A stretch of DNA of 64,000 nt, taken from Candidatus Hydrogenedentota bacterium. Its GTDB lineage: Bacteria; Hydrogenedentota; Hydrogenedentia; Hydrogenedentales; JAEUWI01. The DNA is taken from contig JAEUWI010000032.1 in assembly GCA_016791475.1 (NCBI GenBank), positions 1 to 64,000 of the forward strand. Reading direction: 5' to 3'. The notes under the pieces were generated by a model. The model was not told the origin of the DNA, searched no databases, and saw only the letters and a list, made by a program, of their open reading frames with translations. Each line of letters opens with the position of its first letter. Within the stretch, counting starts at the first letter, position 1. Position numbers and translations under genes: made by a program. Below, in pieces: positions 6,320-11,352 of the stretch.

Positions 6320-8299
6320 TCAGGTGCGGATAACACGCAGGAATTCTTCCGGATTCACCAGGCCCTCCGTCACTTTCTGGCGACAACGCATGGCCATGGT
6401 GGTCAGTTTTGCGGCTTTCATGATGACTTCGGCGCTGGCTTCTTCGTAAATCAGCTTGCGGATGGGCTCGGTAATTTCCAGCACCTCGAAAATACCGGTA
6501 CGACCATGATTGCCCGTGTGGTAGCAGGCGTCGCAACCGCTGCCGCGGAATAGTTTCTTTGTCGTCGCGGGCAAACCGAGGGATTTAAGCAGCGTGGGCG
6601 CCGGTTTGAACGACGTGACGCACTCGCGGCAGATGGTGCGGACCAGCCGCTGGCCAATGACGGCGGTCAGGGCGCTGGAAATGAGATAGGCGGGCACTTC
6701 CATGTTGCGCAGGGTGGCGATAGCCTCGGGCGCGTCATTGGTGTGCAGGGTGCTGAATACAAGGTGGCCGGTCATGGCGGCGCGGATGGCGATGCGGGCG
6801 GTCTCGGAATCTCGAATTTCGCCCACGAGCAGCACGTCGATATCCTGGCGGAGGGCGGCGCGGAGCGTATTGGCGAAGGTGACGTCAATATCGGTATCGA
6901 TCTGCACCTGATTGATGCCGGAAAGCTGGTATTCCACCGGATCTTCGATGGTCACGATACTGTCGGTCATGACGTTTTTCTGATTCAGGGCCGCATAAAG
7001 GGTCGTGGTCTTACCGCTGCCCGTGGGGCCCGTGACGAGGATCATGCCGTAGGGCTGTTCGATAATGCGGGTCAGGCTTTCCTCATCGTCGGATTCGAGG
7101 CCCAGATCGCGGATACCGGAAAGCACGGAAGATTGATCCAGGAGGCGGAGCACAATGCGCTCGCCGAGGAAAGTGGGCAGCGTCGCAACGCGCACGTCGA
7201 ACTCGCGGTCGCCGACCTCCAGGCTGATGTGGCCGTCCTGGGGGTGGCGCGTATCCGTAATGTCGAGTTCGGCAATAATCTTGATGCGGGAAACCACGGC
7301 ATTTTCGAGCTCTTCGGGAATACTCATGATGTCGTGGAGCACGCCGTCGATGCGGTATCGAACGCGCATTTCGGGTTCCTGGGGGTCCAGGTGGATGTCG
7401 GTGGCGCCGGAATTGACGGCGCCCTCGATGATGGTGGTGACCATCTGGATCACGGAACTTCCCGACGCCGCCCGGGCAATGGCTTCAAAACGCGCGGACT
7501 CCCGCTCTACTTCGACTTCCTCATTAACGTTCACGGTATCATTCTCCATAACCGATTTGCTTATAGATGGATGGACGGATTTTACAGGCACTTCTTCATC
7601 GAGCTGTTTTGCGGCCTGCCGGGCGGCACGGACCGGCGGGGTCGCGGCACTGGCGTCGTTTTCCTTCAAGGTTCCATAGCGCCGGGCAAGTTCGGTCTTG
7701 ATGTCCTCGCAGGCGGTAATGCTGACGTGGATTCGTTTTCCCAGGATAATGCTTGCGGCTTCAAGCCGGTCCAGAGCCTGTGGGCTGGTAATCAGCACGT
7801 CGAGCCGATCGCCCTGGAGGCTTATGGGTATGATTTCATTCTTGCGGGCCACGCTTTCCGGAATCAATGCGAGGGCTTCGGTGTCGCTGGGGGTCTTCTC
7901 CAGGATGGTATAGGGCAATTCGTGTTGTAAACTGAAGGCCCGGGCAATATCTTCCCGCGTGGCATAGCCGTGTTCCACAAGAATATTGCCCAGCAGTCGG
8001 CCCTTGCGCTTCTGAAGGGCCAGGGCCTCTTCGAGCTTATCCTGGGTCAATACCCCCATACCGACCAGGGTATCGCCCATGCTTTGCTGCACCGTATGAA
8101 CGGCTTTGGAATGGAATTCATAGCGGAGCATGTCTTCAACGGCGTTGAAAGACACTTTTCTGGCCTGGATGAGTTGTTTGTACCATGGGGTTCCGGTACT
8201 GGCTTCTTTTTCCTTGGCCTTGTTGAGCTCATCGCGGGTGATGAGCTCCTGTTTGACGAGATTTTCACCGAGTGTAGCGCTGTTTCTGCGCGCATTCAT
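6320..8299 (-). CDS. pilB: PilB/GspE-type assembly ATPase
   Basis: A 659-residue cytoplasmic ATPase that powers extension of a type IV pilus or type II secretion pseudopilus. The first ~220 residues contain two MshEN/GspE-N-like modules (LGENLVKQELIT and LGNILVEHGYAT repeats) that can bind c-di-GMP in some members. The ATPase core has Walker A GPTGSGKTTT (about 423), an Asp box, Walker B LLVGEIRD (about 487) and the zinc-binding CxxC pairs TICRECV and GCDACY (about 555 and 590). It is longer than average PilB because of the N-terminal modules. No other pilus genes adjoin it. An A/G-rich ribosome site (AGGAGGAA) precedes the ATG. Confidence 0.9.
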   Translation of the reverse strand: MNARRNSATLGENLVKQELITRDELNKAKEKEASTGTPWYKQLIQARKVSFNAVEDMLRYEFHSKAVHTVQQSMGDTLVGMGVLTQDKLEEALALQKRKGRLLGNILVEHGYATREDIARAFSLQHELPYTILEKTPSDTEALALIPESVARKNEIIPISLQGDRLDVLITSPQALDRLEAASIILGKRIHVSITACEDIKTELARRYGTLKENDASAATPPVRAARQAAKQLDEEVPVKSVHPSISKSVMENDTVNVNEEVEVERESARFEAIARAASGSSVIQMVTTIIEGAVNSGATDIHLDPQEPEMRVRYRIDGVLHDIMSIPEELENAVVSRIKIIAELDITDTRHPQDGHISLEVGDREFDVRVATLPTFLGERIVLRLLDQSSVLSGIRDLGLESDDEESLTRIIEQPYGMILVTGPTGSGKTTTLYAALNQKNVMTDSIVTIEDPVEYQLSGINQVQIDTDIDVTFANTLRAALRQDIDVLLVGEIRDSETARIAIRAAMTGHLVFSTLHTNDAPEAIATLRNMEVPAYLISSALTAVIGQRLVRTICRECVTSFKPAPTLLKSLGLPATTKKLFRGSGCDACYHTGNHGRTGIFEVLEITEPIRKLIYEEASAEVIMKAAKLTTMAMRCRQKVTEGLVNPEEFLRVIRT

Positions 8300-9759: not shown

Positions 9760-11352
9760 TCAGCCCCCGCCGAGGAGTTCCCGCACGCCCGGGGTTACGG
9801 GAAAGGCCGAGCCGAATCGCACGGGTTCCACGTGGCCATCGAGATAGAGGACATTGGCGCTGTCCGGATCACGCCCGAATACACTGGCGGTGACCCGCTC
9901 AAACATGATGGGGATGGCCGCGCGGGTATTGGCCGCGGCCAGGGGATCGCTGCGTTTGGCGACGAAGAAGTACTCCACGTCTTTCTTCAGGCGCCGGAGC
10001 ATTTTGTCCGCCGTATCGATGTCGGATTGGATATCGGGTGGCGTCGGGCTTTCCAGCGCGGATTTGAAGGCCGCCAGGGCCGCTTCGTCGAGCAGGACGT
10101 AGCCGGTGTAGACGTAGGAGCGGGCCATGAGGGCGTGGGCCGTGTTGAAGTCCGGCGGACTCGCTTCGAGGGCGTTTTTCATGGCCTTTACGAGTTCGGG
10201 GTCGTTGAGGCTGGGCCGCACCAGCAGGGCGGGATCTTTAATGTAGCGCGGGTAGAGCTGTCGCAAATCGGGCACCCAGGCGCCGGGCACATCGGTAACC
10301 ATGGGCGGAAACTGGTTGGCTTCCGACTGGGCGCTGTATTCCAGCAGCGCCTTACCGATGGTTTCCAGGTTCTCCGCGCCCGCAGCCTGCCGGGCCGCTT
10401 CCAGAGAGCGGGAAATGGTGGGCAGCAGGATAATGGCGATGATGGCAATAATAAAAATCGGCACGGTGACCTGCATGAAACGGAAGCCCCAGGTGGCGAT
10501 GCGCTCTTCCTGGGCCTCGTGGCCGGCGCGGAGGTGATCTTCCGTCTGCGCGGCCAGGTTTTCGGGGGGATGGACCTCCGGAAGTTCGCGAATGGCTTCC
10601 AGCGTGGCGCTCTCCGCGGCGGCCAGCGCCGCGCCCTCCTTCAGGGCGGCAATGGCGGCGGCCAGCTTTCGCTGGCGTCCGGGCGAAAGCAGATTGAGCT
10701 GTCGGCGCCGGATGTTGTCGCGCAGGCCCTTCGGGACGGGTGAGGCGGTGGCGACCCCGGATGGCTGGGCAATGCGGTCGCAGGCGTCCAGGAGGAGTCT
10801 TTCCGCGCGGCGGCGAGAGAGGTTCAGACTCTCGCCCAGTGCGGCCGGATGCAGACCGACCACGCAGGCCAGCAGCACGGCGGCCCGTTCCTTAAGGGTA
10901 AGGGCTTTCAGGGCGTTCACGAGCGCGGCGTTTCGGTCGTGGCGTTCCGTTTCCACCGCCGACGCGTCATCGTCCCAGGCGGACCATTTGTCATCCCGCG
11001 CGGGGGCCATGCCGCCCCGGAGGATGTTGTCCCAGGAAGAGCGCTTCTGCTGCTGCTGGCGACGGGCGTGTTCCAGGGCTACGAGGGTGGCCGTGCGGAA
11101 GATCCAGTCCTTTACGGAAGGCGCCTTGCGCAGCCGGGCGAGATTGTTGACCGAAAGCGCCAGGGTGCGCTGGAACAATTCCGAAGCGCGCTCGGGATCG
11201 CCGGTGAGCCAATAGAGATAGTTGTAGAGCGGCCGCTCAACATGCTCGATCAGGGGGCGGCACGAGGCGGGATCGCCCTTCTTAATTTCGGCCAGAAGCG
11301 GTCGCGCATCGATATCGGGATTGTTATGGGTAACCTGCGTTTCCGTAGTCAT
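9760..11352 (-). CDS. ECF sigma-like domain fused to a pilin-like helix and H-X9-DG domain
   Basis: A 530-residue protein; the start MTTETQ was preferred over an upstream frame start with low-complexity Pro/Ile residues. Residues ~15-95 resemble sigma70 region 2 (PLYNYLYWLTGDPERASELFQRTL), and ~140-195 resemble region 4 (ALTLKERAAVLLACVVGLHPAALGESL). After a charged linker comes one membrane helix (PIFIIAIIAIILLPTI), immediately followed by SLEAARQAAGAENLETIGKAL, which is strikingly like the N-terminal helix of DUF1559/type II pseudopilins. The C-terminus carries NVLYLDGHVEPVRFG, the pattern of the H-X9-DG pilin-associated domain. Each half is familiar; the fusion is not. Function inferred: a membrane-tethered sigma-like regulator. 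Confidence 0.7.
   Translation of the reverse strand: MTTETQVTHNNPDIDARPLLAEIKKGDPASCRPLIEHVERPLYNYLYWLTGDPERASELFQRTLALSVNNLARLRKAPSVKDWIFRTATLVALEHARRQQQQKRSSWDNILRGGMAPARDDKWSAWDDDASAVETERHDRNAALVNALKALTLKERAAVLLACVVGLHPAALGESLNLSRRRAERLLLDACDRIAQPSGVATASPVPKGLRDNIRRRQLNLLSPGRQRKLAAAIAALKEGAALAAAESATLEAIRELPEVHPPENLAAQTEDHLRAGHEAQEERIATWGFRFMQVTVPIFIIAIIAIILLPTISRSLEAARQAAGAENLETIGKALLEYSAQSEANQFPPMVTDVPGAWVPDLRQLYPRYIKDPALLVRPSLNDPELVKAMKNALEASPPDFNTAHALMARSYVYTGYVLLDEAALAAFKSALESPTPPDIQSDIDTADKMLRRLKKDVEYFFVAKRSDPLAAANTRAAIPIMFERVTASVFGRDPDSANVLYLDGHVEPVRFGSAFPVTPGVRELLGGG

Follow-up and report, generated by a model that had tools for sequence, protein, structure and literature searches.

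An ECF Sigma/Anti-Sigma Fusion Protein with a Pilin-Derived Membrane Anchor in Candidatus Hydrogenedentota

RESULTS

Architecture of the fused gene

The window, i.e., the whole stretch of DNA analyzed (64,000 nucleotides), comes from a Candidatus Hydrogenedentota genome (G000; 7.7-Mb assembly in 529 contigs). Its minus strand carries, at positions 9760 to 11352, a gene for a protein of 530 amino acids, read as a single frame without internal stop from an ATG at 11352 to the stop codon at 9760 to 9762. Profile searches, alignment, and AlphaFold prediction placed sigma and anti-sigma domains, a membrane span, and an extracytoplasmic part in this one chain, and the order of the parts is an ECF sigma-like domain, a class I anti-sigma domain, a membrane helix in pilin register, and a DUF1559-like outer domain. 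The product is shown to be a fused ECF sigma/anti-sigma membrane protein whose membrane helix and outer domain derive from a DUF1559-type pseudopilin. A first-pass annotation had proposed a chain joining sigma-like segments, a pilin-type helix, and an outer domain, which the uninterrupted frame and the orthologues in the genus bear out; its domain list missed the anti-sigma domain at about residues 206 to 285. Orthologues are complete in two further genomes of the genus (G001 and G002), while in a fourth (G003) the frame runs across the sigma/anti-sigma junction to residue 277, where the contig ends. The two halves are separate genes outside the genus, as a frameshift or assembly error joining two genes would leave them; however, the same fusion recurs in independent assemblies, with full-length copies in G000, G001, and G002 at 44 to 58% identity, and this artefact, considered in the first-pass annotation, is ruled out with a residual probability close to nil.

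Sigma region 2 occupies residues 17 to 101 (11050 to 11304, minus strand), is degenerate at the positions of regions 2.2 and 2.4, and is reported by Pfam as Sigma70_r2 at residues 34 to 100 with 29.8 bits (cut-off, 24); its fold is backed by AlphaFold and VIA. Sigma region 4, at residues 135 to 198 (10759 to 10950, minus strand), has lost the ECF consensus of the recognition helix and reaches only 12.4 bits in the fused protein alone (cut-off, 25.7), and DUF1559 (PF07596) also remains below threshold there (15.4 bits at residues 318 to 359; cut-off, 23.3). The Pfam search suggested in the first-pass annotation thus found region 2 directly but the other two domains only with the help of family alignments, in which region 4 was detected in 17 of 19 members of the sigma alignment and DUF1559 in 13 of 19 members of the second-half alignment (E value, 0.01). 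The AlphaFold prediction contains both sigma domains, region 4 included, and the profile of the sigma half matches SigW, AlgU, RpoE, and other ECF chains. Regions 2 and 4 are joined by a conserved linker, RSSWDNILRGG (residues 104 to 114; 11011 to 11043, minus strand), which the alignment of the four fusions recovers with small changes as RSSxDNILRGG and which is missing from the split sigmas.

The anti-sigma domain comprises helices 1 to 3 at residues 210 to 255 (10588 to 10725, minus strand) and helix 4 at residues 266 to 285 (10498 to 10557, minus strand), the latter predicted to be continuous with the membrane helix. The profile of the second half matches RsiW (1.5e-5) at profile positions 11 to 81 and geopilin and other pilins (6.7e-5) at positions 82 to 151, as well as ChrR and RskA chains. 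AlphaFold and the profile together find helices 1 to 3, a linker, and helix 4, the class I arrangement, in which helix 4 covers sigma2 (PMC7406223, section 7). The Hx3Cx2C zinc motif, which is not obligatory in class I anti-sigmas (PMC7406223), is absent from the aligned fusions; zinc loss was dropped as a special mark of the fusions because several split anti-sigmas also lack the motif, others having it. Across the shared half, identity between the fused protein and the split anti-sigma of G000 is only 27%.

Structure prediction was based on one alignment (A6) with its fragment placement taken as is, two others (A4 and A5) being excluded for misplaced sigma fragments. The full model (mean pLDDT, 90.6; pTM, 0.64) shows sigma2, a poorly ordered linker, sigma4, anti-sigma helices at residues 210 to 218, 224 to 236, and 240 to 255, and then a single helix from 266 to 342, comprising anti-sigma helix 4, the membrane span, and pilin alpha-1, followed by a mixed outer domain. 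Its sigma2/sigma4 part resembles anti-sigma-bound SigW (Z, 13.9; rmsd, 3.0 over 157 residues) and differs from the open polymerase-bound sigma form (rmsd, about 27). The sigma half folded alone gives the same closed form (Z, 17.1; rmsd, 2.8 over 155 residues), so the likeness to SigW is no proof of docking onto the fused anti-sigma domain. The model also matches the PhyR-NepR chain 4qic_C (Z, 13.1; rmsd, 3.1 over 122 residues). Sigma chains took up the whole match list of the full model, which left the outer domain barely probed.

The pilin-register helix and the outer domain

The membrane helix lies at residues 287 to 311 (10420 to 10494, minus strand) and continues into a pilin alpha-1 segment, SRSLEAARQAAGAENLETIGKAL, at residues 312 to 342 (10327 to 10419, minus strand). 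Gly289 and Phe290 (10483 to 10488, minus strand) occupy the prepilin −1 and +1 positions, and P311 stands at +22. This exact pilin register supports the pilin-type helix of the first-pass annotation: the spacing is that of the true prepilins of G000, which read G|FTLIELLVVIAIIGILAAILLP with P at +22, and the fusions read G|FRFM(Q/L), also with P at +22. The juxtamembrane RIATWGFRFM is identical in the three full fusions, in which position +5 is Q, Q, and L and never Glu. The class III signal pattern, Gly or Ala at −1 followed by a hydrophobic helix, is therefore present at G289/F290; a passage of PMC10191384 states that class III leaders always end in Gly or Ala and that Glu5, though frequent, is not required. 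Within the protein, conservation is highest in the membrane segment (89% identity between G000 and G001; 71% between G000 and G002). Net charge over residues 270 to 289 is −3, and G000 has one prepilin peptidase gene.

Among 16 split anti-sigmas, P occupies +22 in 13, Gly −1 in 5, and Glu +5 in 5; Gly-Phe occurs only in L042, and Gly, a hydrophobic +1 residue, and Glu occur together only in L039. By these tallies the helix is pilin-derived and across the split family mostly no longer a prepilin signal, the three full fusions all keeping Gly-Phe. The extracytoplasmic DUF1559-like domain (residues 343 to 530; 9763 to 10326, minus strand) carries YLDGHVE near its end, and D495 takes the place of the H of H-X9-DG, so that the literal H-X9-DG motif of the first-pass annotation is absent.

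Genomic context, distribution, and origin

The gene pilB (6320 to 8299, minus strand) lies close to the fused gene, and a link to a secretion or pilus machine had been proposed. In G001, too, the gene and its neighbor lie near the fusion, at a distance of about 7 kb; in G002, the 11.8 kb downstream of the fusion contain neither, and the G003 contig ends within the fusion. Since proximity recurs in G001 only, pilB was rejected as a partner and the proposed link is unsupported. No operon is common to the four genus loci; the neighbors, named by sequence reading, include cimA and apgM in G001 and G003, a DUF6807-like gene in G001 and G002, and a Gfo/Idh-like gene in G000.

A survey of 68 Hydrogenedentota genomes, a step the first-pass annotation had advised, found the fusion in all four genomes of the genus (in G003 only as far as the contig end) and in none of the other 64 among the matches listed, where a full fusion would rank at the top. 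The best matches in the other genomes of the phylum begin at about residue 195 to 215, i.e., at the anti-sigma domain, and the gene upstream of the split anti-sigma, where the locus shows it, encodes an ECF sigma, with stop and start mostly overlapping. Each genome of the genus also carries such a split pair (on C3 in G000, C30 in G001, C548 in G002, and C97 in G003), in which a normal ECF sigma is accompanied by an anti-sigma that carries the same pilin-derived anchor; everywhere in the phylum the pilin-like anchor is part of the anti-sigma half. Outside the phylum, the check consisted of two fusion-specific peptide patterns, which returned 36 stretches from two relatives, both Candidatus Hydrogenedentota and read as G002 and G003. 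Another ECF sigma in G000 (L095, 1425 to 4289, on C38) is probably membrane-spanning and carries a long extension, one frame covering about 955 amino acids.

In trees of both halves, the fusions form one clade (support, 100/100) on a long branch, which in one of the trees measures 2.5 changes per site; the sigma-half tree places them beside the split sigmas with weak support (80/32). A recent duplication of the genus's own split pair is unsupported, its split anti-sigmas standing apart from the fused clade and grouping with those of G005 and paralogues (100/99). Phylogeny and distribution show the fusion to be a derivative of single origin of a two-gene ECF/anti-sigma system widespread in Hydrogenedentota.

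Loss and retention in the sigma half

Signature residues for polymerase and promoter contact are mostly lost from the fused sigma half. The four fusions retain 17, 19, 17, and 17 of 41 ECF-general columns, compared with 29 to 34 in eight unrelated ECFs of G000 and 32 to 40 in 18 split sigmas, and the columns were chosen as conserved in these same 26 proteins, which favors them. The gap persists when 15 split sigmas are tested by leave-one-out: the fusions keep 16 of 60 cells in region 4.2, and each split sigma loses at most two columns. The losses are spread over all sigma regions, the polymerase-binding region 2.2 as well as the DNA-binding ones. In region 2.2, the D/Q/E positions (58, 61, and 62), which from work on sigma70 we take to be core-binding, are kept together in none of the four fusions. 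The recognition helix of the fusions is still basic (SRRRAER and SPRKARRR), and DNA binding could for this reason be re-specified rather than lost. The anti-sigma and RNAP contact surfaces of sigma factors overlap (PMC7406223, section 7), so sequence cannot tell the loss of one from the loss of the other.

Divergence at codon positions 1, 2, and 3 between G000 and G001 is 0.40, 0.29, and 0.56 in region 2 and 0.34, 0.34, and 0.64 in region 4, and the third position is the most divergent in both regions in all six fusion pairs; this excess is weak or absent in the linker. The pattern gives a moderate signal that the sigma module of the fusions is under selection. Region 2 is nevertheless only 45% identical between G000 and G001, versus 70% for the outer domain. 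The sigma fold is kept in the fusions, yet not as a consensus sigma.

An ECF-type promoter in the split family

The dyad TGAAC-N16/17-CGTA was found upstream of 17 of 17 split sigma genes, with a best dyad of 3 or 4 in shuffled sequence. All 21 distinct split sigma genes examined have it (20 by script plus L137, whose site precedes a start inside a longer frame), and it precedes none of four unrelated ECF genes. The split system thus appears to work like a normal ECF pair. In several split sigma genes the site overlaps the called start codon (e.g., L010, 635 to 660; L031, 863 to 888), which suggests that these calls are too far upstream and that the true starts probably lie a few codons downstream. 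None of the four fused genes has the site within 400 to 450 bases upstream, even with one mismatch allowed.

The site also precedes the gene for a large secreted protein (LPSADM...SWxDFRxLL), next to many of the pairs, and genes for pilin-like paralogues that lack an anti-sigma domain. The genes behind it form a candidate regulon of the split ECF pairs, with examples at L031, L032, L034, L039, L042, L043, L045, L049, L066, L080, L081, L082, L098, L130, and L138; some of these loci were picked for carrying the motif and give no rate. Secreted proteins that read as PQQ-like (DWPRWTGPLGRNV) follow the site at L153 (G000:C71), L135 (G001:C17; two genes), and L132 (G003:C132). Tandem arrays of pilin-like paralogues without GFTLIE occur near split sigma/anti-sigma pairs at L080 (G026:C109) and L098 (G002:C548). 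The site was found before none of 22 true prepilin genes, in a tally by gene class that is crude, as some anti-sigmas and fusions fall under "other" and duplicate loci are counted. The pattern was rejected as a genome-wide predictor, with 18 matches versus 15 in the reversed control in G000, and in the phylum scan a longer form was not clearly in excess; only its position makes the pattern informative. The window holds three matches (31461, 55138, and 56707; average in shuffles, 0.35), all far from the fused gene.

DISCUSSION

Relation to known systems

Sigma/anti-sigma fusions are described for IutY of Pseudomonas putida (ECF243) and for ECF48, ECF52, and ECF53 in section 3.5 of PMC8999054 and in a passage of PMC5411451. 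As in these proteins (PMC8999054), the fusion reported here places an ECF sigma, an anti-sigma domain, a membrane span, and an extracytoplasmic part in one chain; unlike them, its anchor and outer domain are pilin-derived (DUF1559-like), it has no zinc motif, its sigma half is degenerate, and proteolytic release is putative. PhyR, according to a passage of PMC8103513, has a sigma-like domain with an ECF fold and degenerate promoter- and RNAP-binding regions that titrates an anti-sigma. The fusion shares the sigma-like fold with degenerate contact regions; in contrast to PhyR, which is a response regulator, it has a membrane anti-sigma domain and no receiver domain (Pfam scan, E values up to 10), and anti-sigma titration is putative. 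With RsiW-type class I (ASDI) anti-sigmas it has the three-helix bundle, linker, and helix 4 in common, but its helix 4 is predicted to be continuous with a pilin-type membrane helix and Hx3Cx2C is absent. Like DUF1559 pseudopilins, it has a pilin-register helix, P at +22, an EAAR-type alpha-1, and DGHV near its end; unlike them, it lacks GFTLIE, Glu5, and the H of H-X9-DG and scores below the Pfam cut-off. In search listings of titles and abstract beginnings that cover few subscription journals, no paper was found on a pilin-derived anchor of an anti-sigma factor or on a membrane-tethered sigma mimic, and passages of two papers that name both DUF1559 and sigma factors mention each separately. 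Fusions, mimics, and pseudopilins are each known; what appears to be new is their combination with a pilin-derived anchor.

A proposed membrane-tethered sigma mimic and its alternatives

The promoter site, found at all 21 split sigma genes examined but at none of the four fused ones, and the retention of only 17 to 19 of 41 residues lead us to read the protein as a membrane-tethered sigma mimic and not as a working sigma. We favor, with a probability of roughly 0.45, a fused ECF sigma/anti-sigma protein whose sigma half has become a protein-binding mimic and is no longer a polymerase subunit. The first-pass annotation had proposed a transcription factor held in the membrane by a pilin-like part: the architecture, a sigma-type fold tethered through a pilin-derived segment, is confirmed, while it is doubtful that the protein still drives transcription, the signature residues being mostly lost and the promoter site absent. 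In the proposed mechanism, the sigma half would act through protein binding, like the sigma-like domain of PhyR. The outer domain would sense a partner or a state at the cell envelope, and the single long helix formed by anti-sigma helix 4, the membrane span, and pilin alpha-1 would relay the signal; because no break is predicted between helix 4 and the pilin helix, any shift or turn of the latter would reach the sigma module. The module would then either come off its own anti-sigma domain or be locked onto it, and in its free form it may compete for the anti-sigma of the separate working ECF pair in the same genome. The split-pair anti-sigma as the target of the mimic is a guess, because it is only 27% identical to the fused protein.

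The main alternative, possible but doubtful, is that the protein operates as IutY does, the anti-sigma half keeping the sigma half at the membrane until, on a signal, it is released by stepwise proteolysis and turns on promoters of a new specificity. The order of parts equals that of IutY and the ECF48, ECF52, and ECF53 fusions (section 3.5 of PMC8999054 and a passage of PMC5411451), the fusion derives from a working ECF pair, its closed sigma conformation resembles anti-sigma-bound SigW, and the recognition helix has stayed basic; set against this are the signature residues of regions 2.2 and 2.4, which are mostly gone, and the absence of the family ECF site from the fused gene's own promoter. 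It is improbable that the fused gene is a decaying remnant, a pair inactivated by fusion whose sigma half is being lost. The fast evolution of that half and the long fused branch would fit such decay, but the frame has stayed open in four species, third codon positions are the most divergent in both sigma regions in all six pairs, and the fusions share a conserved linker of their own and a confident predicted fold.

Two further readings assign the switch to the pilin-derived part. The active site of prepilin peptidase is cytoplasmic, and cleavage between Gly289 and Phe290 would shed the sigma/anti-sigma module, making pilin-type maturation the switch. Every full fusion has P at +22 and, within an identical 10-residue stretch, G at −1 and F at +1; this arrangement, the single prepilin peptidase gene of G000, and the dispensability of Glu5 in leaders that end in Gly or Ala (a passage of PMC10191384) are consistent with such a cut. 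Yet we consider it very unlikely, as Glu5 is replaced by Q, Q, and L, the residues before the site carry a net charge of −3, a leader of 289 residues would be extreme, and only 5 of 16 split family members have Gly at −1. More broadly, a pilin subunit may have been turned into a signaling receptor, its head and unbroken helix controlling the sigma-like module, which a Gly289-Phe290 cut by prepilin peptidase or a pull on the helix by a type IV filament machine would free. This seems quite unlikely; if true, a gene-regulatory circuit would take its input directly from pilin maturation or assembly.

Implications

The phylum-wide split family has a promoter motif of its own and a set of candidate targets, among them pilin-like paralogues of the sensor, which makes the circuit directly testable. 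Beside it, the fused copy in this genus looks like a natural case of a sigma factor losing its signature residues while being kept folded and tethered to the membrane, and, if so, it would show how regulators that act by mimicry arise.
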